From positions 20,547,687 through 20,611,686 of the forward strand of contig OX387184.1 of the NCBI GenBank assembly GCA_947561395.2: a stretch of DNA of 64,000 bases. The letters are read 5' to 3'. This DNA comes from Buxus sempervirens (taxonomy: Eukaryota; Streptophyta; Magnoliopsida; Buxales; Buxaceae). Position numbers and translations under genes: made by a program. The notes beneath the pieces were generated by a model. That model ran no database searches. It was not told where the DNA came from and saw only the letters and a program-made list of their open reading frames with translations. Shown one piece after another: positions 6,019 to 27,831 of this stretch. Positions within the stretch are counted from its first letter, which is position 1. Each line of letters begins with the position of its first letter.

Positions 6019-6323
6019 TGTAAAATCCCTAATTTTGAAGCAAATAAAAATTATATTAGTTTAATATCTTAAATAAAATCTAATTAGTGGTTTTTGCAGA
6101 AAAGGTGACCATATGGCCTTAAATTTGAATCCGGGTGGACCAGCTTGGAGATCTTTTATTTAGCAAGGTAAGAAAAATTTTGTAGTGTTAATATGAGGGT
6201 TAAGTGGGTTGCTGATGTGGAATCTAATGTGAAAAATAAATAAATAGGTTGTTGTAGTAGAAGAGGTGTGGTGGAGTGGCACACCATGCGATCATGAACA
6301 AATTTGGTCTGCTGGGCGGCAAC

Positions 6324-6332
6324 TATAAAAGG
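6324..6332 (+). promoter_or_regulatory. TATA box of LTR B
   Basis: TATAAAAGG about 305 bp into the LTR, followed by a GA-rich leader-like stretch. Confidence 0.6.
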
Positions 6333-7678
6333 CTGAGAATTCAGTCGAGGTTTTTTTTCAGTGGTCGATCTAAATTGGGTGCTCTCAGAAGAGAAGAGAA
6401 GGAATTAGGGTGAGAGGCCAGATCTGGAGTTTTGTTGAGCTGCTCAAGGAGAAGTTGCTGTGATAGTGATTTCTGTCCAAGAGGAGAGAAGAGAGAACTT
6501 CAGCCGCATCTGAGTAAGGCCGACAACCTGAAATCTGAGCAGGTATGTGTCTTCTTTAAAAACAGTAGGAATTGGCATTAGATTGAGGTTTTGTTTAGGC
6601 CCTATGGTGATTAGAAAATCAGATCTCAGATCTGATTTCTACTTTTCAGATTGTATTTTCAATGGAGCAGAGGAAGAGGTCGACTGGAAATTTAATTGGA
6701 TTTGGGAGTGTTCTTGTCGACTGAGAGAGTTCAGAATTTTGGATTGCTTAATCAAGGTAGGTAGCATAATCTAATTTTCGGATTAGTTGTTTTTTTCATG
6801 AAATGGATTTCGTTTTACACCTGTTAAAGATTGTTTTTATGTGATCTGATCTGGCGTTCCAGATCTGGTTATTGCTTAAATGTTGATGGAATGAGTTGTT
6901 TAGCATGGGCGACAGGTTGAAAGTAGTAGGTTTTTTTTCCTGTTGTGAATGGTTTATAAGTAGCATGAATTGATGTGTTGTGAATGGTTTTCTGAATAAG
7001 CATAAGTGAGTTGCCTTTCCCTGTTCTTGGTTAGTCATAGACGTATGGCAAGTTTTGGTTCTGCAGGTGGTGCAAACCAGAAATATTAAAGTAAGTTGTT
7101 GTTTTCAATAGGTAAATTGTATGGTATAGAGAATGTAGGACAGGTAATTGAGTGGATTAGAATCCATTGGGGTGAAATACTTACTGGCATTGCAGAATTT
7201 TGAAATGAATAATTATGAGTGGCCACTGTTTGTGTTATAGTATTGTAGACACCCCAAAATTGCACGATTTTTGATAAATCTTGAAGGAGAGAAATATTGT
7301 ATTGGAATTTTCAATTCTTTGCATTGGGTTTGAGATCCTTAACCCATTTGAATCCAAAACCGCAAAGGAAAAGGCCCGAATTCAATCTTTTGTGCAAAGT
7401 CAAACTTTTTCCGGCTGAATTTTGTTGACTTTTGACCCCAGAAAATGAAATATTTTTAAAAGCTAGATTTCAAGATAATTTTTCCCGGTAATCAGGTTTT
7501 TAGCCATGTTATTGCATAAAAGAATTTTTTGAGATTTTAAATCTTGACGAATACCTTGGTTTTAACATGTTGAATCTTTTTACCGAACCTGAAAAATCGA
7601 AATTTTGCCTAGAACTGGAAAGTTGACTTTTTATTCACTTGTAATTTGGGTCTGGAACTATTTTTAATGGATTCAAAT

Positions 7679-7783
7679 GGGGGGGGGGGGGGGGGTGTTT
7701 GCTTATTTACATGTAATATCTTAAGTAAATGGAGATTAAAAAATACGAGGACATTTACTTAAACGATATTACATGTAAATAAG
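7679..7783. repeat. G tract plus 29-bp palindrome, shared with LTR L
   Basis: Seventeen G at 7679-7695 are followed by an inverted repeat with arms 7702-7730 and 7753-7783, beginning CTTATTTACATGTAATATC; the second arm has a 2-base insertion. A related module (13 C and a palindrome) sits in inverse orientation at 51583-51680 in the unrelated LTR L. Behaviour is MITE-like, but no target duplication was established. Confidence 0.75.
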
Positions 7784-7821
7784 TATTGCCTGTGTTAAAA
7801 TTGGGATAAAAGCTTCTTTTT

Positions 7822-7970
7822 TTGTATCCGACAGATAATGTCAGATACAAAGCATCTTTATTGTATCCGACAAATAATGTCGGATACAAGTAGCCCTTAA
7901 TGTATCCGGCAATATATGCCGGATACACATAGGCGCTAGTGTATCCGGCCTGACATGCCGGATACACTAG
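7822..7970. repeat. Hairpin array of LTR D (TGTATCCG/CGGATACA)
   Basis: Four inverted repeats: 7822-7850 (12-bp arms, one mismatch), 7861-7889 (perfect 12-bp arms), 7901-7927 (11-bp arms) and 7936-7970 (perfect 14-bp arms starting CTAGTGTATCCGGC). Arms share TGTATCCG while loops differ. The array ends about 160 bp before the TATA box. Confidence 0.9.
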
Positions 7971-8131
7971 TTTTGCTCAAAATTAGGGTTTTCCGAGAGC
8001 TTTCACCTTTTACCATCATATCCCTCATTAAATGAGTGGAAATCTCGGAAATAGCCTTAAGGTTAAGGTTGGTGGGCTATGGACATTATGTTGTGTCTAC
8101 CATCTCTCCAACCCTAACCCTAGCATTTGCC

Positions 8132-8140
8132 TATAAATAG
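8132..8140 (+). promoter_or_regulatory. TATA box of LTR D
   Basis: TATAAATAG in GCCTATAAATAGGAG; same context as in LTRs F and G. Confidence 0.75.
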
Positions 8141-8482
8141 GAGACTCCTCCTTAAGCAAATGGCCATTAACTCTCTTGCCAACAATTCTTGCTAAGAAGA
8201 GCTCCGAGAGAAGAGGGAAATCGCTGCGGAAGTGCTTCCAGAACCCAGGTAAGCCTCAAACCTCTTTTTAATTTTTGTTTTTACATTTAGATCTCTTCTT
8301 CTACCTTTCTGTAGAATAAGGCCTTGATGTGTGTATGAAAACCCTTCCCCGGCTCAAAGTATCTCAAGACTCCCCCTAGCCGTAAAACGTGAAGGCGGGA
8401 TCTAGGAGAAACGAGACTTGGGATTGATCCTAGTACTAGAACCTCTTTTGAATAAGCCTTTTGAATCTTTGAAAACCGTTCT

Positions 8483-8746
8483 ATATTCAAAGTACCCCAA
8501 GATTATCTTGAAGAACCGTGTTTAACGGGGAGAGAGAACTAAGGGAAACGATAATGGAACGGAACCCTAGGTTGTTCTAGAACCCTCTTTTTATTGATCT
8601 AACATGCATGCTATGAGCCTTGTGGTTCAATGAAAACCCGTTCATATTCAAAGTACCCCAAGATTATCTTGCAGAACCGTGTTTAACGGGGAGAGAGAAC
8701 TAAGGGAAACGATAATGGAACGGAACCCTAGGTTGTTTTAGAACCT
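8483..8746. repeat. Direct duplication inside LTR D
   Basis: Copies 8483-8585 and 8644-8746 (offset 161) are nearly identical and contain AACGGGGAGAGAGAACTAAG and GGAACGGAACCCTAGG. The equivalent part of LTR G is also duplicated, so duplication of this downstream module recurs. Confidence 0.85.
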
Positions 8747-11700
8747 TATTTTGATTGATATGAATGCATACTATCTTTGCTACATTGTTGGAATGGTTTT
8801 TACACCTACACATACATAGCACGTGATTTTGGCGAGATAGGCTCATATTTCGGATTTATTGCATTTATTGTGATAAATCTGAAATAAATAGCCCCAAGCA
8901 ATTCTGGAATGTTTTCAAATGATTTTCAAAGGATTTGGATTAATCTTGCACGGATCACCCACACTTTATCACTATTTGGAGTTGGTTTTCTTCAAAAATG
9001 GCTTAACTTAACAGCAACTGTACCCCGACGTCGGACACTCATAACTTCATCGTCCAGATGAATTTTGGAGTGATTCTAGAACCAGGTGAAAGGTGAGGCT
9101 GTCTAGTTTAGGCCTACCAAATGTCATGAATTTCTATCAAGCGGATTTTTTACACCTCTCTGTCGAAGTTGATAGGTCAGTTCTGATCTGAATACAAAAC
9201 TTGTCACTTCGACTGAGCACCATGTGTTCGTTTTAAGTCCGATTCGAGTGATTCTTATTTCTGGGCACTCCTCTATGAGTCTATTTTCAAATCCAGTTGG
9301 TCTCATAATTGTTTGACTCCATTTGTATCGTGAGCAACAGATTTACTCAGAGCTGTTCATCAGCACTTTTCTGGGTAAATCTGTGATCTTCGGGGCCTGT
9401 TCAGGAGACCACCCAAGGCACATCCGAATGAATTTTTGTATGAGACTAGTTTCATCTGAAAGATGGCCATATAGACTTCACTCACACCAAAGTTCATGAA
9501 TTTATATGGAGCAGATTGTTCTAGATAATTTTCCAAACTTGCCCACTTGTCACTTTTAATCGTCTCCAGCAGCAACTTTAAAGGAGCATAACTCCTAGGC
9601 TTTCAACCGGATCTACTTGAAATTTTGCATGAGTCTTTTATTTACCATAATCTTTCAAATGGATTTGGTTTGATTCAATTTAAAATTGGATTTGAATGAT
9701 TTCAAGACAAATGGCATTACTTTTTACCAAATTTCCCGGACTTGATTCAACGTGGTTTTGTGTAACTTTTGCTTTGATTTCCATCTTTTGGTGATGTTAC
9801 AGAAATGATATTGACATAAGAGAGGATCTGGAATCCATTTGGATCTTCATGTGAAGATATCATACATTTGTCCTTTTTCAAGGTTTTTTATGATTTTTAG
9901 CAAGCTTTCTTACTTTTTTGCATGAACAAACACTTGGCAACCACCTTGTGTGGGTGAATGGGGGTGCCTAACACCTTCCCCCGTTCACAATCTAATCCCC
10001 TTACCCATCTCTGGATTTGATTTTCAAGTAGGGTTATTTTTACCCTAGAATTTGCCTTTTAGCTATTTTTGCCTATCTATAATCTTTTGGTGTCCATTCT
10101 CACCCTATAATTTTGAATGGTGGCGACTCTCCCACTTTTTGCGTTGAGCCCGTGTGCAGACGAAGGGGGAATCATCCCGGTGATTTTTCCCATGTCTCAC
10201 AAGTATGAAAGACTTAATTAAACTCAGCATAGGTCAAATATATAAGGTAGAGGTTTAAGATTAAGGTGGAGGTAAATTAGGAGTGAAGCTAGATCAATTT
10301 TAAGGAAACCTTTAATTGTTACATAGGCTGGAAATGAAATAGGTGGTTGGCGCCCAAGTTGCTGATCATGGCCGAGTGGTGCCAGTCCACCTTCAATTCT
10401 ATAGTTGTTGTGTTTCAATCTAAGTGCAGTCCTATATTTATAATTGTGGTAAAATACAATTTGGGAACTTCTTAGGAAACCTATGTAGTAATAATTTGCT
10501 GAAAATCACATTTTATAGTGGAGTTGGCGCCCATACCATCTGCTCTAGTGCCAGGGTAAAATTCAGCATAACAGTCAATGGTTTAACATCTAGTGGATGG
10601 TTCATTGAAGAATCATTCTAGAGAATTAATATGAGAAGCTTTAAGAACTTCTTGAGTATATGTAGAGAGGCTGAAATAGACATTATAAATGAAGTAATTG
10701 ACAAACACTTCCTCTAAGAACTGTAACTAATTAGTAGTCTTAGGCTGATGAGATTAGAAGTAAAGGAGTTCAGAAAAACTGAATTACAAAGAATTGAATT
10801 AAGGGACTCTTGAGACCAGCAGTTTGGAAGTTGGCGCCCAAATCAAATCTTTGTTAGCTGGTGCAGCTAATTGGTTACATAAACACCTCTTGGTTATAAA
10901 ATTTTTAGGAGCTAATCTATGGGTTTTAAGATCCTAAAATCTGTTGTAGAAGAGTTAATTACATGACTAAGGATTCGGTTATTGCTAGTAGACTAATGGT
11001 TAGATGCTGCTGTTGCCACATTTGTTAGAGGTCGGCAGCAAACTCAAACACTTTAAATAGTGTTATTGGTTACAAAGTTCAGTAGGGGCTTGCTCATGAG
11101 TCAATTAGAAGTCAATTTAAAGCATGTATGAGTGAATTTACTACCTATTGGTGTGAGTGTCAAGTGCTGTTATAAATTGACAGCAGCCCTTGTTTCTGTA
11201 CCTTATATTTTATTCCAATGTCTAATTGAGGAAATCTAGTTGGGGAAATCAACTAGGATCATTTAAGGGACTCTTGGAAAATAAAAGAAGGCTGGGTTTG
11301 ATAAATTAGTTCATATTCAAGATGGAAACCAGCAATCTAAAGTCAATACGTGGGAAGTTTATGAGTCCTGGAATTGGTCCAGCTCATACACCTTGTGATT
11401 GTAAAACCCATATGGAGGCAATATCTAAAGGATAAATGGGAGTTAAAGAAAAAGAGCTGGAGGAAAATCTAAGGGCTGGAAATTGGGGGTATGCTCAAGT
11501 CTTAAGTTGGGAAAAACAGAAAATATTAGGAGTAATGAGTGGAGGGTTATCATCAAATCTGAACTTCTATTTAGTCTTTATATTTTGTAAAACTTACTAG
11601 GGAAAGATACTTAAAGGATAAATCATAGATGATAAAAGGGGATTGGAGAGCAATAGTAAATGCTGAAATGAAAGTACTAACTAAGATTCTAGATAAAAAT

Positions 11701-11974
11701 AAGAGAGTTAAAGGAAGAAATGAGAATATTAGACTAAATAAAAGTAATGTGGGTATAAATTCTTCTTGTGGTCTATGGTTTGAGTTAAATCAAGTTATTC
11801 AGGACTAAGTTTATTAGATAGTGAAATTTTGGATTTCTACTCTCAGATTTATTGATTTAACCGAGATTTAGCAAATTTTACTAACTTTTGACAAAAAAGG
11901 AATTTTAAGCACTATTTTGGTAAAAAAGGATTTTATATGAGATGTTTTGAGAAATAAATCTGATTTTTGGGATT

Positions 11975-12108
11975 CTCCATATATTTGGAGGATAGTGATG
12001 TGGTCATGATGAGAAATTATTATTTTACTTCCGTGTATTTCGGAATGAGTTTTGGAACCTCTTCATGTACCTTGGAGAGAAGATATTTTTACTCCATGTA
12101 TCTTGGAG
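11975..12108 (+). repeat. Covarying hairpin array, LTR B left part
   Basis: Four 5-bp hairpins with 6-7 base loops: CTCCA/TGGAG at 11975-11990, TTCCG/CGGAA at 12029-12045 (loop TGTATTT), CTTCA/TGGAG at 12061-12077 (loop TGTACCT, one U-G pair on the plus strand) and CTCCA/TGGAG at 12092-12108 (loop TGTATCT). The loop is conserved while stem pairs change together. The array resumes at 27975 after element A. Confidence 0.85.
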
Positions 12109-12927
12109 GGTGATGTTGATGGATTGGCACAGATAAATTGTAACATTTGCGGATTTTATTAAATAAATAAAATAATTCATCTTGGATTTTAGGATATATT
12201 TATTTAGGTGATGAGATGGAAGGCCAAGATTAAGAGTTTTGTTAAAATCTAACGGTGGATGATCCATTACAAAGGTTAGTATCATTCAAAATTTTATATG
12301 GATTGTGATTGGCTGGTTTGTTTGTGTGATGTGGGGTGGTGAAGCATGGAATCATTCATTTAAATAGGATTATTAGGGTGGAGCATGCGGTTGAGACTTG
12401 GTTTGGAGTTGTGTTTGTGCAAGTGCGGCTGGAGAAAAAGGGACGAAGAAGTGAGGAACGAAAGCTGTGCTTGGGGGGTTACTGTTCCATTGCATGTAAG
12501 TAGTGACCCTTCTAGAAATCTACATATGCTTGGTTTCATCGTTAAACAACAATGCTTTTGACTTTCTTGCAATGCATGTTTTTGGACTGATTTTTCATAT
12601 TCTAGAAATGTGTTAAGGATCTAGAGGGTTTGCTTATTGTTTTACCTGTTAAATGCATGACCTTACTATGATTCATGATGGAAATAAGAATGAGAAGAAG
12701 CTGCTGGTATGGTTGTCGGCAGGAAATAATCTGAGTTTTTGTCTTGGAAGAAAGACAACCAACAACGTGTGATGAGATTTCAGATTCAAGAAATTTTGTG
12801 GAATTAGAAAAAGGTGGGTTCGTTAGAATGAAAGAGGGTGTACAAGTGAGCACATTCCAGCTGGAAATGGGACTGTTAATGGGGAGATATAACCAGGGAA
12901 GAAAAATAAGAGAGTTGCAGAAAACGT

Positions 12928-12977
<50 letters not shown>

Positions 12978-14411
12978 AAAACAGAGTTGGTTGCAGGGAA
13001 GAAATAAGAGAGGAATAACTTGATAGGGGCTATGTGGCAATCATGAGAGAATAAAATAAAAGAAGAGAATCGAATGAAGGAGAAAAAGAGGGAATTGGGG
13101 TTGGTTGTTTCCCACGGAAGAGAGAGAAAGAGGAGATGGGTGCATTGTTGAGTCAAAGATTCATGGTTGTTGAATTGTTATTATAATACCAACAAAGAAA
13201 TTGGGTAGAGGACGAAAGGTGTAGAGAGAGACAAGGCAGGAAGCAGTCATGAAAGAAAAACAGAAAAAAAAGGAAGAAAATTAGTTGCAGAAAACGTAAT
13301 AGTTGAAAAGAAAAAAATGAGCTACTGTGTAGTGCAGAGTGTATGTCGATTAGGAATTGGTCTGGTTCTTTGAGATAAAAGAGAGAGAGAGAGAGAGAAA
13401 GCAAGAATAAAATAAAAGAGAAAAAGAAATTGAATGAGGGAGACAAGTATGCCAGGTTGGGGTTGATTTGCTTTCTACGGAAGAGAGGGAAGGAGAGGGG
13501 TCGTTGATGCAGGGTGTTAATTTGTAAATTAGAAATTGGTTTAGGTTGCTTTGCTGTTTCAAAATCTTAAAGTCAAAGGAGATATTTAACTCCACATTCA
13601 CCCTTGTTACTCTTGGAAAATTACGATTGCTGAAAGAGAAAAGCTTACACCTATGTACGCCACTTGCATGATAATTGGGTAAATAACTTTACAGATTGTT
13701 GAACTTATTACAAATTATGTGGAAAAGGTTTATTACAATGGAACTATTTACTTTTTGGTCATATGGCTTTAGTACAATGCATGTTTTTATTGAACAATTG
13801 AATCACCATTGATGTGAGATCCGTGAGTATTAAAAAGGTATTATTATTGGAATATTTGTATACTGTAACGCCCCGGATCCGTGTTCTTCATTAAAGATAT
13901 AACACGTCTCCTGGGGGTTAGTTAAGGGTCTCAATAATGGTGATCGCTGGATAATCACCCACATTTTATATCACATCAGAGTGCACAATTCAGAAATTTC
14001 TATCTAGGCAAGTTATGAAATCATCACATACATCAGATGGGCCCAAGTTTACTATCTTATTACAATTCCTCAAATTCAACTTAACAAGTTTAAGACCGAA
14101 CAACCTGCTGGACTAAGGTCGGTAGTAATAATCCTCCTCCCTATATGTATCAGCCGGATCTACCCCCGTAGGCACCTCACCACGAATATCTGAAAAACAA
14201 AGCAACAACGAGAGAATGAGATACGAATATCTCAGCGAGTGACACATGCATGCAGAAATAGTTAACACAGTTATAAGACATGCTTCGACAAATAACCAAC
14301 GATAAAAACAACATAATTCTGATAACAACTCAAACCAGGTCAATGTTATGCATATGGTTACATTGATTAATTTACATGCCAAGTAAACACTCCACACCTC
14401 CATGTACACAG

Positions 14412-14530
14412 TTCCGGCCTACTCAGGGTTTCAAAAACTCTGAAATGACGGCCTACTCAGGGTATCGTCATCCAATGCCAGCCTACTCCGGGTATCGGCA
14501 CTGACAACCAGGCCTACTCAGGGTATCTGG
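14412..14530 (-). repeat. Hairpin array of LTR C with conserved 15-base loop
   Basis: Four units share the plus-strand loop GCCTACTCAGGGTAT (small variants), flanked by different stems: TTCCG/CAAAA at 14412-14436, ATGACG/CGTCAT at 14445-14471, TGCCA/CGGCA at 14476-14500 and CCAG/CTGG at 14508-14530. The three non-Watson-Crick positions become G-U pairs when read on the LTR sense (minus) strand. Confidence 0.85.
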
Positions 14531-15070
14531 CTGCTCTACACTAGTCGTGGCAACACACGTGGCCATGCAATTACACCAACAAACACATATCATCACATTA
14601 CTAAGCTTAACAAGGATCCATGGGAAGCTAAACCCAAACCGATAAATAACCGTTTAAAAATCTGCATTAGTACACATCACCCGTGGTCCCAACCAGAACA
14701 TCAACTCACACAAGTGTTCCAACCAGAACATCAACTCACACAAGAAATCAAGTAAATAATATTTACAACTTAATTCAAAACTTGCCATCAAAACGGGGTT
14801 TAATAAATCAAATCAAGTACCAAACAGTGCATGCTTCAAGAGGACTAAAATAAAGCCCTAGTATGTAGATATCCCAAACATCCTCGACTTATTTCCCCAC
14901 ATCTACTTCATAAGCCTTTACTAAACCTAGGATCTATCTTCAATGTTCTCACAAGCAAATTTTTATCTCTAATGTCGTAAAATATTTTTTGGGTAAGTGG
15001 TCGAAGACCCTCTAGCATCCAAAACCCCTTGGTTTTACGAAATTATAGGATTCGGCAAGAAAAACAACTG

Positions 15071-15306
15071 GGCGCTCACTTCCCTAAGTGGGCGCCAGGT
15101 AGGCACCAAGTGGGCGGTGACTCATTTCATGAAAATGAGGCTGGCGCTCACTCGTGGACGAGTGGGCGCGAGCCAGGCGCCAGACGGGCGCGAGAAGAGC
15201 ACGAGAAGGGCACTGGAAATTGAGGTAGGCGCGAGCTGAGCGCAGAGTGGGCGTTAGCTCGGCGCCGGGTTACATTTCTGGGCGCTTACTTCCCGAAGTG
15301 GGCGCC
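15071..15306. repeat. GC-rich inverted repeats in LTR C
   Basis: Three strong hairpins: 15071-15096 and 15281-15306 (arms like GGCGCTCACTT) and 15144-15169 (arm GCGCTCACTCGT). Each has one T-G position on the plus strand, which is A-C on the sense strand. Local GC is far above the surroundings. Similar GAGCGCC/GGCGCTC pairs occur in LTRs H and E. Confidence 0.8.
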
Positions 15307-16082
15307 AAGTGGGCGGTGACCCACTGCGACTTTCAGTTCTCTGTTAATCCCAGAACTCCAACTCTGGCTGAATTTTTCCTGCCTGTAACTACTTATCTAG
15401 CCTCCCAACACTCCCAGGATACATTCAAACCTATTTTGGATTTAATCTAACATGATTTCCAATTATCCCCAATTCCACTGTACAAAACCCTCCGTAACTG
15501 TTTTTGCCCAGAAAACACCGAGAATACTTCAATCATAAACAATGCATTCATTCAACCAAATACACGAATAAACCCGAAACCTCAGTTGTAAAACAGTGCC
15601 ACTCACCTGTATGCGCTTAATCCCAGAACAACAGCTTCTTCCAAAATCGGCCGAGCACGACTCCGGCTGCGCGCGAAGATGAAATGGTAGCCGAACAATT
15701 CCTCTGCTCGCGAGAGAGATAACCCGCAGAAATCCGACTCCAATGAACTCCTAGCAGTCCTTCCGAGTCTTGCTCTTCATGGAATAACCCCAATCGCCAT
15801 TACAGCCGCAATCGCCAAATCGCCCAGCCCTCTCCAGCTAACGAGACTAACGAAAATTACTTCCGTAAGTTACGCGTATTCCTACAACCCAAACCCTACT
15901 TTCCCTTTTTGGTATCTTTACCTCGCGAGACAATACGCCGCTTGATAACTTTCCCTTTTTCCTTGATCCTATGCGCGCTCGCCCACTGGAAACCCTACAT
16001 ATTCCGCATCCACTTACGTTAATAAGCAGACACTATACTTTAATAATAATAAAATAATAATATAAATTTTTCCAGAAAAACG

Positions 16083-16130
16083 GCTATATAACGCCTGTAC
16101 ATACGAGTATGGGCTAAGCCCTCAAACCAC
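16083..16130 (-). promoter_or_regulatory. TATA-containing dispersed motif in LTR C
   Basis: On the minus strand the sequence carries GGGCTTAGCCC, then TACAGGCGTTATATAGCC. It lies about 100 bases into the sense LTR, so TTATATAG may be its TATA box. Close copies occur in the CACTA element near 33868, 48708 and 49628. Confidence 0.55.
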
Positions 16131-16402
16131 AAAAATCACCTGATAAACACAGTATATATATATATATATATATATATCAAACTGAATAACTAAATAAATA
16201 AATAAACTCACCAAAAATCAAGGTCTTACATATACTATATTAATAATAATTAAAAATGTGTATCTGTTGCAGTGAACCATATTGATATTGAATTGCAATA
16301 TAATAACACTTTAAATTTATATATTATATATATGTGTGGTGTGTGGGTTACTTGGGAAAGTGGTGGCTTCGGCTTGCATAGGCTTTCATGATGGTTTTCT
16401 CA

Positions 16403-16751
16403 CCCGTGTATCTCGGGATAAACCAGGTTCCTCTCCATATAACTTGGATTGAGGATTTGATTTCCCCATGTATCTTGGGATGAACTCTTGATTTCCTCCA
16501 TGTATCTTGGAGTTAGGTATTATGCAATGATTGGCAATATTGGAATGGATTGGTTATATATCTTGATTTTGGCTGTAGTGTCTAGCAAGCATAGCTATGT
16601 GTGGAACCATGCATTAGCTAAGTAATGAAATGGGCTGGTCTTTGTTTTAGGTTAATCCCGTGTTCCATGTATGCGTACCACCATGTACCTTGGTGAGGCC
16701 TTCCTGTATCTGGTTGTGCTGCAGCGACCCGTACCACCGTGTATCTCGGTG
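16403..16751 (+). repeat. Covarying hairpin array, LTR A
   Basis: Six hairpins with 7-base loops TGTATCT, TATAACT or TGTACCT: CCCG/CGGG at 16403-16417, TCCA/TGGA at 16434-16448, CCCA/TGGG at 16465-16479, CTCCA/TGGAG at 16496-16512, CACCA/TGGTG at 16679-16695 and CACCG/CGGTG at 16735-16751. All stems are fully paired although their sequences differ. Confidence 0.88.
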
Positions 16752-17540
16752 AGGTCTTTCTTTATGTTATCGTTGGAGTCTGATTGGGTTGTACTTGCCA
16801 ACCCACTCCTGTATCGGGTTTGGGTGCTCCGCAATAAGTCGATGTCCGAAACCCAGAGTAGGCCGGCTTCGCACATAAGTTGTGAGGTGGCAAAAATTGG
16901 AATGGGTAGTCGACCTCTCAAAGAAGTCTAATTTCATGAGTCCTGTGAGATAGCAATGTGAATTGTGGACTATATTTGATATGAAAAAGGTTGGTGGATT
17001 TACACAGGATGTTGTTTTTATCTCTGTAACCTCATGAAAGGTTTTGATAAATTATATGACTGCGTTTTCTTGCATGCATGTTACTGCTTACTGGGATTTC
17101 GATCTCATCAAACGTTTTCAAATGTTTTGTTTTCAGACTATCCAGGTGATAACGATCCTGAAGGGGTAGATCATTAAAGGGTAGAGGATCTGGTTGGAGA
17201 CGACTCAGGCGATCCTTACTGTTGATGTAGGGTGTCTTTTTGGACAATGCTTTATTCTATTGACTTGTTGCTTTATGGATTTTTTTTTCTTTTGTTAGTA
17301 AAATGGGTTGGTAGTTGACCTTGTTCCAGACTTTATCGAGGATTTTATCTAGTATTGGGATGTCATGATTCTACATTTTGGTAAAGGTATTAATATTTGA
17401 CTTTGGATTTGCGTACTCTGATGTATTTGATCTTAGTCAGGATTTAGTTGTTGTATATTTTGGCTTACAAGGCTCACGTCTTGGGCTTGGATTTATCTTA
17501 TTAAGAATAAATCTGGGTCCGGGGCGTGACACCTAAAGGA

Positions 17541-17551
17541 GGTATCAGAGC
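17541..17551 (+). other. Primer binding site of element A
   Basis: GGTATCAGAGC, 11 of the 12 bases TGGTATCAGAGC complementary to the 3' end of plant initiator-Met tRNA. It starts nine bases after the LTR end, slightly further than usual. Confidence 0.8.
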
Positions 17552-17685
17552 ATAATTAGGATCCTCAATCCTAGGTAGTTGAAAGCCTTAGGTTGGTTAT
17601 GGGATGTGTGTTCGTTCGATAGAACCTTTAACTTTCATAGATGAGTGATTCCTAACTTGGATTCATCTCTTGTTTTGCAGTTGAA

Positions 17686-18642
17686 ATGGCTAGACGACGC
17701 AATTTGGAGGGTATCTATGCTGAGGCTCCAGCTGCTGAGGCCCCAGATATGGATGAGCAGATGGGGCAGGTTTGGAGAGCCTTGGGATAAGTGTCTACTC
17801 TGTTGAACAGAGAGGCTGAGGAGAGACAGAGACAGAATCAGGATATTGGGGCACAGCAGAGATTCCATAGGCAGGGACAGTCTTCTATCTCTGAGTTAGA
17901 GCAGTTCAGAAAGATGTCTCCACCTAGCTTCCAAGGTTTACCTGATCCTATGGAGGCTGAGAAGTGGGTGATGAGGATAGAGAAAATTTTTACTGCTATG
18001 AGATGCCCAGAGGATAGGAAAGTAGAGTTGGCTACTTTCATGTTGGAGGGGGAAGCCGAGTTTTGGTGGCAAGGAGTCATTAGAGGAATTGGAAATGCGG
18101 GTCAGCTATCTTGGGAACAGTTTAGAGATAAATTTTATGAGAAGTTCTTCTCAGAAGAGGTGAGACTTCAGAAGGAAGGGGAATTTATGACTATTTCTCA
18201 GGGTAGCATGACCGTGACGCAATACGAGGCCAAATTTTCAGAGCTAGCTAGATTTGCTCCCCACATGGTTGAGGATGAGGCCAAGAAGACTCGTCATTTT
18301 CAGAGAGGCCTGAGATCCGACATTCGCAGCAGAGTGTCTGTGTTGCTGTGTACTCAGTTCATGGACTTGTTCCGTAGAGCTACAGTAGTCGAGAGGGAGA
18401 TGGGCTTGAAGAATTTTGAGCCGAGCAGATCAAGGGCCCCAGCTAGACCAATATCTGATCATAAGAGGTTCTATGCAGGAGATAAAAGGCAAAGGACGGG
18501 TTTTGGTGATCCAAGGAGGGGCACTATGGCTAGTGGGAGTTGTACTAGGTGCGGACGATCCCATCTGCCAGGGCCGTGTTTTGCACCTTTTGGGGCATGC
18601 TTTAGATGTGGACAGCATGGCCATAGGATTTCAGACTATCCA
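17686..18642 (+). pseudogene. Element A gag, 5' part
   Basis: Reading starts at ATG 17686 after a short leader; the first residues are Arg-rich. A retrotransposon gag core follows, with the family-typical FWWQG, SWEQFRDKF and QRGL segments (about 17920-18400). Then comes a basic tail and a zinc-knuckle region (18598-18639). An in-frame TAA at 17788-17790 breaks codon 35; it could come from CAA by one transition. The CCHC knuckle has Cys at 18598 and 18607 and His at 18622, but the final Cys position (18637) is TAT, Tyr. Solo LTR H cuts the frame after 18642, and the frame resumes exactly at 21949. Gag would coat and package the RNA. Confidence 0.9.
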
Positions 18643-19769
18643 TGTAACGCCCCGAATCCGGGTCTCTTTTTTTTTCATTTTGACTCGGATCAAGGCATTA
18701 ACTTGTGGTACATTACAGTCAGTTCAAATATAAGGAAATAAAGAACTAAGATTTATCAGAGTGCTAGGAAGCTTAAATCATTTATTAGAAACTGAATCTC
18801 CCTATTACATCAATTAATCAAATGGAAGGCAACTACAAATTAACTAACTCTTAATATCCTACCAAATAATCTATTATGATTCCAATAAAATAAATACAAC
18901 TATATAAAATTATCCTACTCTTTTCATATGGAATTTCTAGACTTCAACCCACTATCTGTCTAACCCGTGGCGTCCTCTCCAAGATGACCTGAAAAGTAGA
19001 ATATGAAGTAGGGGTGAGATACAACTATCTCAGTAGGTAACACTATGCATGAGGAAATAGTTTATACATATAGAAAATAACAGTGGTTTCATGCACGGTA
19101 AAATAGGCGAGTAATTACAGTCAATGAGATAAACGAATAATCACGATAAAACAAACATTTAATCAATGCCCGAATTTAAAAGAAGTTAATCAGGTGTGTT
19201 TCATTTCAATTTAAAGGACAATGTATTATATTTCACATTCCCATGATTTCTGGTTTATTTTCTGTAGTGTCTTCTTAAGAGCAGTTCCACATTTTATTCG
19301 TGATTCCATAATATTCCATTTTAACAGTTCTCCTTAAATCATAGCAATTCTATTCAGTTATGGCATTTCAATATTTCCTTTTTAAATAAACAATCCATCA
19401 TCCTGAGAATCAATCATCATATCAGTAATAAAAGCCAACCTTCAGGTAGTAGCCTATCTCTACCATAGAACGCAAACACGTAGTATCCACACAAGCTCCG
19501 CAGGAGAATGCACATCTCTAAGACTACAGGTACCCCCTGCAGGAGACAGCATAACTCTACCGCAGGATGTGAACACCTAGCATCTACCTCTACCGTAGGA
19601 GATAGCTTCCTCACCTTCCAGTGGTAACTCACACACCCATCCTCCATGTGGGATGCAATCACGCATAATCACATCTCCCCCACATGAGGTATCTCTCCTG
19701 TAGGATGCAATCCATCGGAAATACATCTGCCCCACAGGAGGTAATGAATCTCTCCCGCAGGAGGTAATG

Positions 19770-20178
19770 TCTCCGCCACCAAGCGGGTATCTCCGCCACC
19801 AAGCGGGTTATCTCTGCCACCAAGCAGGTTAGGGTCTCCGCCACCAAGCGGGTTAGGGTCTCCGCCACCAAGCGGGTTATCTCTGCCACCAAGCAGGTTA
19901 GGGTCTCCGCCACCAAGCGGGTTAGGGTCTCCGCCACCAAGCGGGTATCTCTGCCACCAAGCAGGTTAGGGTCTCCGCCACCAAGCGGGTTAGGGTCTCC
20001 GCCACCAAGCGGGTATCTCTGCCACCAAGCAGGTTAGGGTCTCCGCCACCAAGCGGGTTAGGGTCTCCGCCACCAAGCGGGTATCTCTGCCACCAAGCAG
20101 GTTAGGGTCTCCGCCACCAAGCGGGTATCTCTGCCACCAAGCAGGTTAGGGTCTCCGCCACCAAGCGGGTTATTAATA
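19770..20178 (-). repeat. Tandem hairpin array CCGC/GCGG and CTGC/GCAG with CACCAA loop
   Basis: About 18-24 base units (CTCCGCCACCAAGCGGGT and CTCTGCCACCAAGCAGGT types) repeat roughly twenty times. Both stem positions change together between the two unit types while the loop CACCAA stays fixed. The last copy near 20183-20196 has TGGC/GCCA. The array opens minus-strand ORFs of low-complexity protein, which I do not treat as genes. Confidence 0.9.
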
Positions 20179-20838
20179 AAGCTGGCCACCAAGCCATCAC
20201 ACAGATAATTCTCAATTCCATTATTATTTCTAACATATTAGGTTCATGTTCAAAGTCCGGTTCTAAACAGTTCCCCAGTTTATTAATCATAATATTTTGT
20301 TCAGTATATAAAAATATCTTCAGCATGATAACCCAATTTAGTGTTAGGTAGATATTTAATTAAGTAAGAAATTTGATGCATAACACGTACGCTAGAGTGC
20401 GGTTCTAATCATGTATTAATTACATTACTACTCAATTGTTTAACAGTATAGGTGAGTGGTTTTTAAGGTAATACAATTTAATTAAGATTCGGTTATAATA
20501 TACAAAATTTTCAAGTTTGGATGCAGTGGAAGGAATTCACGTACATAGCATGATTTTAATTTGGTTTGTGTTTTTCAAGTTATTAAGGTTTAGTCATGGT
20601 CAAAAAGACAAATAGAAGTATTTAGGTTTTAGTTTAAGTCAAATAAAGTAAAAAGGGAGTTATTACAAATGAGTGTTAGTGACTAAATTTTAATAAAAGT
20701 TATTAATAATTAGGCTTGTAATGATTGCAACCATAAAATTGTGTTTTACAACGACCGCCTAGGATCGCTAGAGTAACGAGTTGGGCGGTCTTCAGCGGTA
20801 GTGCTTTTCGGAAACGCGTGATTTGGTTTAAATAACAC

Positions 20839-20938
20839 GAGCGCCGAGCGACCGTCAGGGCGATCTCGGGCGCTCAAAGTTTTTTAACTAACGCCGAACA
20901 TCGCCTAGGAGCGCTGAGCGCAGGCGAGCTCGGCGCTC
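20839..20938. repeat. GC-rich inverted repeats in LTR H
   Basis: Two hairpins: GAGCGCCGAG at 20839 paired with 20865-20875 (one bulged G), and GAGCGCTGAGC at 20909 paired with 20928-20938 (one T-G). They resemble the GGCGC hairpins in LTR C. Confidence 0.7.
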
Positions 20939-21948
20939 TAACCAAAATGACGAACTGAGTTTCTAAACATCAGATTTTTGTGTTATAATCGCTTTTGAAC
21001 TTCATATAAATTAATATAAATCAATATACACACGTTTACAACATAGGAGATCATGCAATCGAATCGAATAACCTCATAAACACAAAAATCGTTAAAACGA
21101 AGTGCCACCTACCTCCGTCCGCTCACGATCCTTTCTTCTTCCAACCAGAGACTTCCTCTCCTCTTCGCAGGCAAGAGATGTTCCAGGAATGATGAGAAAC
21201 CAGAGATATGCCTCTTCCTCCTTCTCGGTCTCCCTTTCTCTCTCTCGTTCTTCTTCTCTTCCGCCGCAACCCCAAACTTCAATGCACAAGACATCCTACG
21301 AATGCAACTAAAGATGTTAAACCCTATTTTTATTCCTCCCTGATCCCACGCATCTCCCTAGGATCCGGTTCCATACTTACCCATCCATTAGACTTAATAA
21401 GGACCGTTAATCCACTCTTTCCTTGATATCTCACGATCCAACGGTTAGATCTGCGTCAAACTCCAGATCTCATCTATCAGTGTGATCATCTATAATTATA
21501 ATTAATATCCTTCAATAAAATTCTGATCTCCTCGACTTCAGGCTTCAAATCAAACATAATTACCAATATGCCATTATTCCAATTACTAAACTTTAAATAT
21601 CATTGTTAATAGACAATCTAAACCCCAATTAAATCTATTAGTATTTCTCAAGTCTAATAACAAATTTTAATTAATGTATTTAATTATTTACCGATAATTA
21701 ATGTGAATTGACCGAAATACCCTTCTCTCAATATTTTCACATCTACCCATTCAATTTCTCCCGAAATTTCCAAGTTTATTCTCTTTGTCATTATTAGTCC
21801 GTTATACATCCCGAATGAATTATAAGTACCGCAAATCATTCCTTTATATTAAATCCCCAATTTATTTTGATAAATTCATTGACACTCCAAATATTCGTAT
21901 TAAATTTTTATTTATTTATTTAGTGAAAATTCGGGGTTTTACAATCCA

Positions 21949-23074
21949 CACCCCTCTTCGTACCAGCCATTACAGATTAGGCATACCCCACAGGCTGAGG
22001 TGCAGGCCCCTCCTCCCAGATTTCAGAGTGGATTCCAGGGGCAGCGATCTGGGCAGAAATCTGCGTTTGGTAAGAAGCAGATTGGGAGGCCAGGACCAGC
22101 TGGTAGAACAATACAATCAGGATCGGGCCAGAGACAGCAAGCAGCAGCCCCACGACGCCAGCCTACTCAGGGTAGAGTATATGCAGTTATAGCTCGGGAC
22201 GAGCTGGAGACCCCGGAACTTGTTGGAGGTATGGTTTATGTTTGTGGTCGTACTGCTATATGTTTATTTGATTCCGGAGCTTCCCACTCCTTTGTTACTC
22301 CTATGTTTGCTCGTCGTATTGGATTGTCACCTGAATTTATGGATTCTGTGTTATCTGTACATTCCCCCTTGGGTGAGTCAGTTAGTGTTCAGACAGTATA
22401 CCGTGATTGCATGGTTAGATTGGGCCCGTTAAAGTTATCAATTGATTTGATTAGTCTTAAATTTGGGGACTTTGATGTGATTTTGGGAATGGACTGGTTG
22501 GCTAAAAACCATGTAAGCATTGATTGCTTTCAAAAGACCATCACAATTAGTTTGCCTGAGCAACCAGTGTTGTGTTATATTTGTGAAGGGTTGAAAACCC
22601 GTATTAGTTTGGTAGCTTCTCTTGAAGTGGATGAGGATAAGGCAACAGAAGTCAACCTTGTAGACGTTCGTGTGGTTAGGGAATTTGTAAACGTTTTTCC
22701 TGAGGATTTGCCAGGATTGCCGCCTCAAAGGGAGATTGATTTTAGGATTCAGCTCCAACCCGGTACACATCCTATCTCCAAGCAACCATATAGGATGTCT
22801 CGGTCTGAATACCAAGAGTTAAAGAAGCAGATTGATGAACTGCTAGAGAAGGGGTACATTAGACACAGTTCTTCACCTTGGGGTGCACCTGTGTTGTTTG
22901 TCCAGAAGAAGGACGGGTCGATGAGGATGTGCATCGATTATAGGCTGTTGAGTCAGGCCACTGTGAAGAATAAGTACCCACTCCCAAGAATAGATGATCT
23001 GTTTGATCAATTGAGAGGACCAGCATGGTTTTCAAAGATCGATTTGAGATCTGGATACCATCAGTTGAGGGTAG
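21949..23074 (+). pseudogene. Element A gag end, protease and RT N-terminal part
   Basis: Continues the gag frame from 18642. A Gln/Arg-rich gag tail leads to a retropepsin with active-site LFDSGAS (Asp codon 22270-22272) and the conserved GMDWL. The RT start follows, with [11 protein letters not shown], the [13 protein letters not shown] segment and [13 protein letters not shown]. No stop lies within this part. Solo LTR I interrupts immediately after LRV at 23074 and the frame resumes at 26757. Protease would cut the polyprotein and RT copy the RNA; the gene as a whole is dead because of lesions elsewhere. Confidence 0.93.
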
Positions 23075-24118
23075 TGTGCGCGCGTGGGAAACGCGGCACG
23101 GGGTAATTCGGAGTCGCCACCGCCTGATGGGGTGCAGGCGGACACTTGGGTGCCTAAGTTAGTCTATTTAGGGCTTTTGGTCTGCGGCTTGAGATTCCAA
23201 GTTTGGTTCTCGGTTGTGGTCTGGGGAAGTCCGTAAACACCCCAGTCCACCCCGTCGGATGACGGGTCCCGTGGGTTCCCTGGTCTGAGTCAGCTTTATT
23301 TTGGTTTCTCACCCGATTCCTAATCCGGCATGACATTAGGTTAGGTCTGTCGGGACCACCTGAGTGGTGTGGGTCCCTTTATTTGATTTTATCTTGCTTT
23401 AGTTTAGGCAATCTGAGTCGGATTGGGTGGGCCCCGTTGGAAGGCCCATGGTGTCCCTGGTGGGCTTCGGTGAGCCCATGTGCCTCTGGTGGGCCTCTGC
23501 CTAAGCCTAGGAGGCCCTTTGAGCTTGGGTGTAAATGAATTGATTTTACTTAATTTATTCAAGTTGGAGGCTTAGTGATTTTCATACAATGGGCCTGCCT
23601 TGGTTTGCGGGCCCCTGGGTGGGCCTCCATGATGGACGCCAAAGTGTTTTCAATTTATCTTTATTTAAATTTCGCAAGATATTTTGGACATTGGGCCTGG
23701 GGCCCGTAGTCCAATTCCGGGCTTGAAAGCCCGAATCTCATGAAGTTAGGGTTTAAACCCACACTTGGTTTTGGTTAGGGGGCTTTGGCGGGCCCGATAG
23801 GCCCTAGCCCTGGGTCTCGGCCAAACCATGCAGTTCATGCACTCATTTCACATTACAAGGCGCGGGTGGGCCGCATTGGGTTTGGCCCATCCGATTAGAT
23901 CGGTTAATTTCAATTAATCTTGCTTAAGTTGCATGCTTTGGTGTTCATTGGGCTTGGTGGGCCCCGTTGGAAGGCCCACTAGTGTGCCAAGTTGGACCGG
24001 TTGGTCCCAGTCCCATCTTGGGTTTCCGGGTGGCCCGGAAACCCTATTGGTTCAATGGGTTATGGTTCAAATCACTCAAAAATTCGGCTGGGGATCACAA
24101 AAGTACAAAAACACATTT

Positions 24119-24268
24119 CTGTGTGTATCTGGCAACTCAGGCCGGATACACAGAGTCTGCAGGTGATCCGGCCAGAGTGGCCGGATACACAGGGATTATA
24201 AGTGATCCGGCCTCCGTGGCCGGACACACACAGTCTACAGGTGATCCGGCCTGAGTTGCCGGATCACC
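24119..24268. repeat. Downstream hairpin set of LTR I (GATCCGG/CCGG)
   Basis: Inverted repeats with arms like GTGATCCGG, GTGTATCTGG and GGCCGGATACAC. The set lies downstream of the TATA box in the sense direction. Equivalent sequence is at 39439-39508 in LTR K. Confidence 0.8.
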
Positions 24269-25661
24269 TCAAGATGGTCTTTTTTTGGATTTCTGGCACT
24301 GGGGTTGGGTTTTTAGGCTCCTAGGGATGTTCTGGGGGTCGTGTGGGCTCCTGTGTGAGCCCACGATGGTCGAGGGAAGCAGAAGACCACACTTTTGGTC
24401 TCTTATGGGGTTTTCACAACAAAGGGAGGAGGTAGGATGAGGGAGATGGTTCTCTCCCACTTCTGCCTCATGCAAGGACTAAACAGGGACCAAGGAGCCC
24501 CTGTTTTGGCTTCTGATTTCGCACAAGATAGCAAGCTCCATATGGGCGAAGAATAAAAACAAAACAAGGATTGGTAGCATGCTTAGAGCCTAAACACTCA
24601 ACATACACATTTCCATATACCATGCACGTACATCAGCAATTTATGCATCTAGCTCATGTTAAAGGACGATAGTGAAACCCTTAAAGCGATCTAGCATGAT
24701 CCTAGAGTAGGGAACCCAAGCATGCATTCGAAAGATACCCTAAACCAACATGATGTACACTAGCACTTGCAAAATACATGCTGCAGATACACATGGCAGC
24801 ACCTAAAAAAGGGGGTAAGCATGCTACATATGGGCTGGAAATAATGGAAAATGGGGTGGGGGAGCATGGCCGTGGGATCACACACACACACCTACACTAT
24901 CATGAAGATGCATACTCACATGCTCAAGCTTCAAAACATGGAAGATGGGGGGGCATACAAACATTCAAAGAAGCAACCAAACAAAGATAACAAGAATGAG
25001 AAAAAAGAAGCAACTCCAAGAAAGGAAATGTGGGGGATAATATGGGATACAAAAGAGGTATGATAAGAGGAACACTCTCCTCTTTTAATGGGGGAAACCA
25101 ATGTAAAAAAAACAGAAAAATATAGCAACTTATCACAGCCTTTAGACCCCTTTTTTTTATCAACCAAAAACCTCCTCTTCCTCACTCAAGACCACACTTG
25201 GTCTCCCTTATCTTTAAGGACCCTCATGCCATGAAAACCAAAACAAAATACATACAAACCCTTTGGAACAAATTGATTTGGGGCACGGGAGAACCGAACT
25301 CATGAAAGACCAAGAAATGCACTCATTCTTATATATTTGACGTAAAACATAATGAGAAGCAATACCTTGAGGTTGGAATCCTATTTGGGGATGTGTTTGA
25401 GTCTCCTTGAGACAAATGAGGTGGCTGGAGCTCCTCCTTTTGCCACCAACCGCAGCTAGTCTCCTCTTGCTTGGATGGAAAATGAAGAGGAAGAAGAGAA
25501 GAGGAAGTGGAAGAGCTCAAAGAGATGCTTCAATGGGTTTTTGGGAGAGAGATGGGAGCTTTGGAGAAGAAAAATGGTGGGAGCAAAAGCTTGCTCAAAG
25601 AAGTGAGAGAGGAACCTCAAACAAAAAATGAGCCGACCCCCCTTTGTGCTAGGTATTTTTC

Positions 25662-25669
25662 TTTTTATA
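25662..25669 (-). promoter_or_regulatory. TATA box of LTR I
   Basis: TATAAAAA on the minus strand, immediately downstream (sense direction) of the palindromes at 25752-25851. Confidence 0.55.
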
Positions 25670-25751
25670 AGCCTTGACTAAAATGCAATTATTCTTGCAT
25701 TTCAACACCAAAACCCTAATCCTTTCATTTCATGCCACCTTTTTAAAACAT

Positions 25752-25851
25752 AAGCAATGATTATGAATCATTGCTTTCTTTTCTTAGCCTCCAAGTAAAC
25801 TTGGAGGCTAAGTTTGCTTGGACGAATTCTCCACATGGAGAATTCGTCCAA
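25752..25851. repeat. Three perfect palindromes upstream of the LTR I TATA box
   Basis: Three hairpins lie end to end: 25752-25776 (11-bp arms starting AAGCAATGATT), 25783-25812 (13-bp arms starting CTTAGCCTCCAAG) and 25818-25851 (15-bp arms starting TTGGACGAATTCTCC). All arms are perfect and loops are 3-4 bases. Confidence 0.92.
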
Positions 25852-25959
25852 CCATTTATATTTATTTTTTTTATTTTTCTTTTTTTCTTTATGTACTTAA
25901 TTCATTTGCCTTTTCTTTACTATTTGCCACGTGTGCAGTTTTTTCAGAAACTTTGACTG

Positions 25960-26640
25960 CCCACAACTCGCTCGTCTGATATCCAATTTTGGTAAACTTA
26001 GTGGCGTTGGAATCAGTGCGAGATTCCCTATCCACTGAATTTCAGTTTAGCAGCAAACTCGAGTTTTTTAACAGCAGTGCCGAGCCGCGTCCGGGAGCCG
26101 ATTTTGCTCATATTTCCTTATCCGGGACACCGATTCCAACAAACTCAGTTGCATTGGAACCGTGTCGAGATTCTCTGTCCAATGGCCTAGGGGTAGGCCT
26201 CTGGATCGGATTTTAGCAGAAAGTCAAATTTTGGCTCTGCTCAAGTTTGACCGCCCGCAGAACCTTCATCCGGACTCCGATTCCTGCAAACTCAGTTGCG
26301 TTGGAACCGTGTCGAGATTCTCTATCCAATGATATAAAGCAAGGTCTCTGGATCGGATTTTAGCAGAAAGTCAACTTTTGGCTCTGCTCAAGTTTGACCG
26401 CCCGCAGAACCTTCATCCGGACTCCGATTCCTGCAAACTCAGTTGCGTTGGAACCGTGTCGAGATTCTCTATCCAATGGCATAGATCATGATATTTGGTA
26501 CGGAATTCGAGGAAAAGTCAACTCTCGGCTTTCCCTTAAGTTTGACCGCCCTTAGATCCCTCATCCGGATTCCGATTCCTGCAAACCCAATTGCGCTGGA
26601 ATCATGCCGGGATTCTCTATCCAATGGCATAGATCAAGGT
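25960..26640 (-). repeat. Subrepeats of about 130 bp near the sense start of LTR I
   Basis: About five degenerate tandem copies contain ATCCGG, TTGCGTTGGAA, CGAGATTCTCTATCCAATG and AAAGTCAA. LTR K has about three copies (36870-37240) and J about two (36150-36400). Confidence 0.8.
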
Positions 26641-26756
26641 GGCCAAATTTTATCTGATTAAAAGGTCAACCTTCCACCCCTCAGGGTTTGACCTTTTAGT
26701 CGGGTTCTGCATTTCTGGCTTTTTTGGGAGCGCAAAAATGAGGTGCTTACAGGTAG

Positions 26757-27585
26757 CACCAGAGGATGTGGAGAAGACAGCATTCCGATCGAGATATGGC
26801 CACTTTGAGCTCTTAGTCATGCCCTTTGGGTTGACGAATGCCCCAGCTGCATTCATGGCCTTGATGAATCAGATATTCCACCCTTACTTGGATAGTTTTG
26901 TGGTAGTTTTTATCAATGACATATTGGTATACTCTCAGAGTGAGGAGGAGCATGGGAATCATTTGAGGATCGTATTGCAGACTCTTAGGGAGCACCAGTT
27001 GTATGCCAAATACAGCAAGTGTCAGTTTTGGCTGCAACAAAATCCTTTCTTGGACACATTATTTCTGGAGAAGGCCTTTCAGTGGACCCAAGTAAAGTCC
27101 AAGCAGTGTCAGATTGGCCTAGACCGAGCAATGTTTCAGAAGTCCGCAGTTTTCTCGGTTTGGCTGGATATTATAGGAGGTTTATAGAGGGATTTTCCAA
27201 GATTGCAGCTCCTTTGTCCCACTTAACCAAGAAGGCAATAAAATTTGTGTGGGATGAAAAATGTGAGCAAAGCTTCCAAGAATTGAAGCAAAGACTGACT
27301 TCGGCTCCAGTCTTGATTATTCCCTCTGAAAATGAATGATTTACCATTTACTGTGATGCATCTAGAGTTGGACTCGGATGTGTTCTCATGCAGCAAGGTC
27401 GGGTTGTATCTTATGCTTCTAGGTTGTTGAGACCACACGAGAAAAATTACCCTACTCACGACCTAGAGCTCGCTGCTATTGTGTTTGCCTTAAAGATTTG
27501 GAGGCACTATTTATTTGGGGCACAATTTGAAATTTACTCTGATCATAAAAGTTTGAGATATCTCTTCTCACAAAAGTTTGAGATA
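26757..27585 (+). pseudogene. Element A RT C-terminal part and RNase H
   Basis: Resumes RT in the same frame as 23074, with [12 protein letters not shown] and the polymerase box. The box reads FINDIL where FIDDIL is expected: codon 26915-26917 is AAT, so one catalytic Asp is Asn. A frameshift lies between about 27031 and 27046. The thumb/connection then gives [16 protein letters not shown] at 27337-27339 precedes RNase H, whose CDAS (27355), LELAAI and SDHKSL segments are visible. The frame then runs into a junction with 3' LTR sequence at about 27586. Integrase is absent. Confidence 0.93.
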
Positions 27586-27831
27586 TTTCTTTTGTTAGTA
27601 AAATGGGTTGGTAGTTGACCTTGTTCCAGACTTTATCGAGGATTTTATCTAGTATTGGGATGTCATGATTCTACATTTTGGTAAAGGTATTAATATTTGA
27701 CTTTGGATTTGCGTACTCTGATGTATTTGATCTTAGTCAGGATTTAGTTGTTGTATATTTTGGCTTACAAGGCTCACGTCTTGGGCTTGGATTTATCTTA
27801 TTAAGAATAAATCTGGGTCCGGGGCGTGACA
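27586..27831 (+). repeat. Truncated 3' LTR of element A
   Basis: These 246 bases are identical to 17286-17531 of the 5' LTR, ending GGGGCGTGACA before TSD TAAAT. The first roughly 2.8 kb of the 3' LTR is missing. Just upstream AAAAGTTTGAGATAT is present twice (27547-27561 and 27573-27587), a typical sign of repair-associated filler. Confidence 0.92.

Follow-up and report, generated by a model that had tools for sequence, protein, structure and literature searches.

Results

Nested LTR retrotransposons at the locus

The 64,000-nt stretch of Buxus sempervirens DNA analysed here (the window) is dense with nested retrotransposons. Five LTRs or elements within it have TG...CA ends and matching 5-bp target-site duplications, the 5' start of LTR A being less certain, and the five LTRs all start with TGTAA and finish with GGGGCGT(G/T)ACA. 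The features are as follows.

6019-12138, 27837-28236 and 31150-31661, forward strand: LTR A, an older solo LTR in pieces, with TG...CA ends and the duplication TCTAT at 6014-6018 and 31662-31666
12139-27831, forward strand: element B, with the target-site duplication TAAAT at 12134-12138 and 27832-27836
12139-17531, forward strand: 5' LTR of element B (LTR B), beginning with TGTAACATTTG after TAAAT, ending with GGGGCGTGACA and followed by GGTATCAGAGC; interrupted by solo LTR S and bearing a hairpin array at 16403-16866
13864-16230, reverse strand: solo LTR S, within LTR B, duplication TATAC
18643-21943, reverse strand: solo LTR E, within gag of element B, duplication ATCCA
27586-27831, forward strand: truncated 3' LTR of element B, 246 nt identical to the last 246 nt of the 5' LTR
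28237-31144, forward strand: solo LTR D, within LTR A, duplication GTTAA

In a profile search the open reading frames of element B match PF03732, PF08284 and PF00078, that is, gag, protease and reverse-transcriptase domains, as well as PF19259 (Ty3_capsid). On the basis of the last match, rather than of a tree, we class the element as Ty3/gypsy rather than Ty1/copia, and it may belong to the Tekay/Del chromovirus lineage. Its 3' part appears to be deleted, and the GGTATCAGAGC that follows the 5' LTR is presumably the initiator-Met primer site. Since LTR A was interrupted by the later insertion of element B, as the TAAAT duplication indicates, the hairpin groups at 11975-12108 and 27975-28101 are parts of one LTR. 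The arrays of LTRs B, S and E, described below, occupy the second half of their LTRs, at about 63-77% of the length in LTR B, 72-77% in LTR S and 53-65% in LTR E. No Rfam family matches the window at its gathering score.

Elsewhere in the window, a transposase gene with Transposase_21 and DUF4218 domains, presumably of CACTA type, lies at 42575-44827. A block of 65-75 nt, GGGCTTAGCCC...ACAGGCGTTATATAGCCG, recurs with small variations in solo LTR S (16063-16127, reverse strand) and at 33854-33924, 48691-48763 and 49611-49683, and a 268-nt direct repeat, 99% identical, is found at 48659-48926 and 49579-49846, its copies starting 920 nt apart.

One loop on many stems

LTRs A and B contain the following hairpins, written as 5' arm, loop and 3' arm, all on the forward strand.

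11975-11990, forward strand: CTCCA-TATATT-TGGAG, 6-nt loop, LTR A
12029-12045, forward strand: TTCCG-TGTATTT-CGGAA, LTR A
12061-12077, forward strand: CTTCA-TGTACCT-TGGAG, LTR A; one T.G pair, seven pairs if extended
12092-12108, forward strand: CTCCA-TGTATCT-TGGAG, LTR A
16403-16417, forward strand: CCCG-TGTATCT-CGGG, LTR B; aligns with 12029
16434-16448, forward strand: TCCA-TATAACT-TGGA, LTR B; aligns with 12061
16465-16479, forward strand: CCCA-TGTATCT-TGGG, LTR B
16496-16512, forward strand: CTCCA-TGTATCT-TGGAG, LTR B; aligns with 12092
16679-16695, forward strand: CACCA-TGTACCT-TGGTG, LTR B; aligns with 27975, and the identical 17-mer is the replacement found in genomic copies L056 and L064
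16735-16751, forward strand: CACCG-TGTATCT-CGGTG, LTR B; lies in a tandem duplicate of the unit at 16679
16846-16866, forward strand: CCG/CGG arms enclosing the S-type loop AAACCCAGAGTAGGC instead of TGTAGCT, LTR B
27975-27991, forward strand: CATCG-TGTAGCT-CGATG, second piece of LTR A
28043-28068, forward strand: AACCCATT-TCTGTATCTG-AATGGGTT, second piece of LTR A
28089-28101, forward strand: CCG-TGTAGCT-CGG, LTR A

An earlier note on this DNA had described twelve of these hairpins, all of which are present where it placed them, 12061-12077 with its one T.G pair; the hairpin at 28089 was missing from it. The accompanying claim that every stem is paired holds for the twelve chosen, but not for the loops that were omitted, at 16259, 16557, 16705, 16790, 16810 and 28002, which have poor Watson-Crick stems. 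The spacers of the A and B arrays are mostly unalike, and it is mainly the hairpin that recurs. The same CCG/CGG stem presents TGTAGCT in LTR A (28089) and the S-type loop in LTR B (16846), and this loop is seen again in the genomic copies L029, L031 and L081.

We also searched without guidance for any loop that recurs within 1.5 kb on three or more different stems, G.U pairs being allowed. The forward strand yielded arrays B, E and A and, at 32018 and 53849, two unrelated clusters of three members each; the reverse strand yielded B (in two registers), E and a further array, S (in two registers). One of ten shuffled controls gave a cluster. When G.U pairs were disallowed, only B and E were returned, and none of five shuffles gave a cluster. 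The two additional arrays are these.

14409-14534, reverse strand: array S in solo LTR S; the 15-nt loop A(T/A)ACCC(T/G)GAGTAGGC on four hairpins whose stems all differ
19773-20196, reverse strand: array E, 19 hairpins with the loop TTGGTG on the stems CCGC/GCGG (12), CTGC/GCAG (6) and TGGC/GCCA (1)

Every 4-bp stem of array E is perfect. The hairpin model picks out a single weak candidate in solo LTR D, at 30443-30463 (E 2.2); by eye, short hairpin-like units (e.g. CTCT-GTGT-AGAG) are also found at 30090-30230 in this LTR, like part of the region around array E. Overall hairpin density was discarded as a test, as arrays A and B are not among the density peaks.

Other palindromes of the window are built differently. 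Tandem palindromes of the form ATCCGGC...GCCGGAT (7826-7963, 24127-24264, 37467-37708 and 39442-39501) show the opposite pattern, with mostly kept stems and variable loops, and some paired stem changes occur among them (GAC/GTC, GGT/ACC). In hairpins of the form GCCCGTA...TACGGG(C), at 34791-34810, 35737-35950, 54652-54672 and 59418-59437, the stem is again kept and the loop variable, and dense GC-rich palindromes surround TAGCGGCGGTAA...TTACCGCCGCTA at 50350-50830.

Stem arms covary within the window

Fifteen sites lie within one mismatch of TGTATCT in three hand-chosen stretches. Their own flanks form 3.80 of 5 Watson-Crick pairs, as opposed to 2.18 with swapped flanks, and none of 20,000 permutations reached as high a value; when two mismatches are allowed there are 28 sites, many of them unpaired, and the own-flank excess persists. 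In the alignment of the 15 sites (14 distinct rows) two-sided changes occur at all five stem pairs, with 22 two-sided cells where 8.1 ± 2.4 are expected (0 of 500 shuffles as high), and sliding the stem partners out of register reduces every measure of covariation. The motif TGTA[TCG][CT]T is flanked by a stem of at least four Watson-Crick pairs at 8 of its 15 occurrences in the array stretches versus 0 of 54 elsewhere in the window. Flank swaps, shuffles and this count together rule out chance palindromes. The loop is never inverted in the arrays of the window. For array S with its LTR B relative, two-sided changes are seen at six of eight outer pairs, in five rows only, and for array E the pair count was equalled in 23 of 500 shuffles, a weak test in which 7 of the 19 hairpins, with three distinct rows, were used.

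LTRs A and B can be aligned through the array, so that their hairpins are comparable slot by slot. Among four well-formed hairpin pairs 9 of 40 stem bases differ and three pairs have changed on both sides, while 18 of the 20 stem pairs are still paired in LTR B; in simulations, three double changes have P = 0.001-0.006 and the number still paired P = 0.01-0.10, the range reflecting the share of transitions. The idea that the loop is kept while stems change finds little backing in this comparison: changed columns amount to 12 of 67 in stems, 8 of 49 in loops (one replaced loop included) and 43 of 228 elsewhere, so the loop rate is barely below that of the rest, and we do not retain loop conservation at the level of A and B columns.

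A high-copy family with the same pairing

In the 676.5-Mb assembly (247 contigs), the core pattern CCRTGTATCTYGG has 2,687 matches versus 41 for the reversed pattern. We took 59 stretches around the first 100 listed places of the 2,687, all on contig C1. In the first 40 copies, oriented by the pattern, TGTATCT occurs 181 times in sense, 75 of these being pattern matches, versus 3 times in antisense, and the 106 sense sites outside the pattern have 268 of 530 Watson-Crick cells versus 179.6 ± 9.2 on permutation. In all 59 copies, which are mutually related so that loop sites are not independent, 35 of 307 loops outside the pattern sit on perfect 5-bp stems, where 2,000 permutations give 2.58 on average and 8 at most. 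There are 13 distinct perfect 5-bp stems, many recurring across loci. At one orthologous slot (36 sites from 31 loci) pair 1 is GC 25 times, AT 8 times and otherwise 3 times, pair 3 is TA in 23, CG in 11 and CA in 2 cases, and pair 4 is AT in 34 and GC in 2. The covariation of stems proposed in the earlier note is thus borne out both in the window, by flank swaps and two-sided cells, and across the 59 genomic copies.

Beyond this genome, two anchors had no match in viral contigs, and plasmids likewise gave no match. Fourteen viral-contig matches to a short degenerate pattern and one bacterial match were taken as chance.

Time depth, exchange of modules and decay

At the slot that precedes AGGYCT, two large supported groups in a tree of 33 rows are distinguished by their stems, CACCA/TGGTG in one and CATCG/CGATG in the other, and a separate group of two rows has CGTCG/CGACG in one of its copies. 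Covariation at this orthologous slot mostly follows deep branches of the tree. Two members of the CATCG group, L056 and L064, have CACCA/TGGTG stems instead. The hairpin that they carry is the LTR B 17-mer of 16679, loop included, and differs by five changes within 13 nt, while the adjoining sequence on either side is that of their own group and clade mates. The most plausible reading is an exchange the size of one hairpin, and what had looked like a double compensation is counted here as replacement of a whole hairpin. Since hairpins also move as units, stems can stay paired without selection.

A comparison of recent copies used 249 of 1,023 orthologous pairs, at about 10% flank divergence. 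The stems are identical in 111 of the 249. One-sided changes comprise 59 A.C, 42 G.U and 8 other cells, and two-sided cells are paired in 81 and broken in 14 cases, but 78 of the 81 contrast CACCA with CATCG-type stems and represent one replacement counted many times, since each of the 40 listed of the 43 such pairs involves L056 or L064. Beyond this replacement, one other two-sided change is seen, in L060, with one-sided changes alongside it (40 of 43 listed). The excess of one-sided changes indicates that old copies decay with little regard to pairing, and the copies compared here are probably dead. That one-sided stem changes are the commoner kind between recent copies comes close to the outcome, stem mutations as often unpaired as paired, that the earlier note had set against its own reading.

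It is possible, if on the doubtful side, that a mutational mechanism without structural selection made the arrays, with template switching during reverse transcription or replication copying one arm of a hairpin onto the other or swapping whole hairpins between co-packaged RNAs, so that complementarity would be kept mechanically. The complete LTR B 17-mer inside the flanks of another subfamily in L056 and L064 agrees with such a mechanism, although an exchange with another copy fits equally well, and template switching can create stems and multi-base compensations at once, as reported in part of PMC8794818. Template switching alone, however, does not account for the fact that one loop recurs and does so in a single orientation (181 versus 3), even if loop inversions are rare in that part of PMC8794818 too. 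Moreover, copying of an arm predicts perfect pairs, yet four G.U stem types are present at 3-11 loci each, and L060 provides the only other two-sided change among the pairs listed in the recent comparison. The array pattern could nevertheless be in part a by-product of template switching at hairpins.

Strand and molecule of the folded form

In the window the non-Watson-Crick stem cells of arrays A/B and S lean towards G.U, with 16 G.U versus 1 A.C where swapped flanks lead one to expect about 18.5 versus 7.8. The genomic copies do not uphold this suggestion of a sense RNA: hairpins with one defect have 38 G.U, 28 A.C and 32 other mismatches (18, 19 and 22 when only distinct ones are counted). 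Among imperfect stems common to at least three loci, four types have G.U, one has A.C and four have other defects; every one of the four G.U types (3-11 loci) can be reached in a single step from some perfect stem that is seen. Those common to at least two loci comprise four G.U, four A.C and six others. As G.U is not clearly above A.C in genomic copies, and shows no excess between recent ones (42 versus 59), the counts do not favour sense RNA over DNA. Nor is array B unusually stable overall, with folding z-scores of -0.28 in sense and -1.42 in antisense, and in array S unusual stability is confined to the antisense strand (-0.02 and -2.91). In about 120 nt of sense context, prediction assigns a probability above 0.6 to 6 of 17 stems in A/B and to 1 of 4 in S, the hairpins at 11975 and 28043 having entered this count in a wrong register.

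The structure may conceivably act as DNA instead, as hairpins in single-stranded cDNA or as cruciforms, with a part in reverse transcription, integration or chromatin. The lower antisense z-scores and the lack of a clear G.U preference in genomic copies fit this alternative, but cruciforms with 4-5-bp stems and 7-nt loops are generally weak and the stem cells of the window do lean towards G.U, and we consider it improbable. According to the earlier note, selection on a folded RNA (or on a DNA cruciform) follows from the paired substitutions. The covariation on which it built is real; the implication, however, is not automatic, given the replacement of hairpins as units, the one-sided changes in recent copies, the absence of a clear G.U preference and an array that is not unusually stable.

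Discussion

The hairpins are real and not due to chance, and their covariation stands at the level of the family. The array of loop-presenting hairpins is genuine and found throughout the family, and it evolves by duplication, by paired change of stems and by at least one exchange of a whole module. It is very unlikely that trivial paralogy, in which recent duplicates of a few palindromes simply inherit their pairing, is the full explanation: tandem duplication is plain (in the 16679 and 16735 units, and in array E, whose 19 copies have three stem types) and many stems recur across loci, but a single palindrome could not have passed on as many as 13 distinct perfect 5-bp stems, nor the two-sided differences seen at orthologous slots, and swapping flanks among the hairpins keeps their make-up yet breaks pairing.

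The best explanation of the arrays, to which we give a probability of about 0.45, is that the hairpin modules are kept in the transcript of the element as a putative multi-site recognition element, presumably acting as RNA and read by a protein. On this reading, the second half of the LTRs of a high-copy Ty3/gypsy-type element holds a row of short hairpins. Each would consist of a stem of 3-8 bp that needs only to pair and that presents a loop to be read, TGTATCT in the A/B family and, in LTRs related to these, ATACCCTGAGTAGGC or TTGGTG. Since the genomic RNA of an element includes every part of its LTR sequence, the simplest use of such an array would be to provide several copies of one RNA recognition site. 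The putative reader is most likely the element's own Gag/nucleocapsid, in packaging or dimerisation, or else a host RNA-binding protein. Modules would multiply by tandem duplication and would at least once have been exchanged whole between subfamilies, and after insertion the copies would decay without constraint. A more speculative extension, which we find rather unlikely, is that the arrays form a modular RNA address of exchangeable hairpin cassettes in which the loop alone is the code, such that a candidate packaging specificity evolves by exchange of cassettes. The identity of a subfamily would then change either by a loop swap on a kept stem, as in CCG-TGTAGCT-CGG versus CCG-AAACCCAGAGTAGGC-CGG, or by a swap of the whole hairpin.

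LTRs are commonly regarded as rapidly evolving DNA in which few parts are conserved, and little is known about the RNA signals of plant LTR elements. A covarying array with thousands of core matches in one genome would give these elements an RNA signal that can be tested. The combination of deep covariation with module exchange also calls for caution, as covariation counts in repeats may reflect exchange as well as selection. A search of the open-access literature, covering titles and the openings of abstracts, found no account of constant-loop hairpin arrays in LTRs.

Several known systems resemble the arrays in part. Tandem units occur in LTRs as the minisatellites of plant Ty3/gypsy elements, and array E resembles one of these, whereas A and B differ in that their spacers are mostly unalike and mainly the hairpin recurs. 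Mitochondrial double-hairpin elements and the bacterial REP/BIME repeats are likewise small palindromic modules that multiply with paired stems, but they are not parts of LTRs, and REP-like repeats conserve the stem, unlike the LTR arrays. Ty1, which belongs to the other LTR superfamily, offers an LTR-retrotransposon RNA structure with a role in dimerisation and packaging such as the one proposed here. Its 5' RNA holds a region of kissing-loop dimerisation and packaging, according to part of PMC5454406; the kissing loops of Ty1 are specific, whereas the LTR arrays present one loop on many stems. The template-switch hairpins described in part of PMC8794818 gain several compensations per event inside a hairpin, as do L056 and L064, but they concern RNA genes in which the opposite arm is copied, whereas in L056 and L064 the hairpin of another subfamily replaces the old one, loop included; in the same part of that study, its authors regard the case for maintenance of short stems by template switching as circumstantial. 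The packaging signals of RNA viruses (STNV, HBV, enteroviruses, HCV) likewise consist of several stem-loops with a common short loop motif, and in HBV several stem-loops share the loop motif RGAG, as given in part of PMC7612645. Viral packaging signals are dispersed over the genome and backed by binding and assembly tests, whereas the hairpins described here are clustered in an LTR and are not known to be bound. The LTR arrays nonetheless fit the pattern of packaging signals in having multiple stem-loops, a shared loop motif and variable stems.
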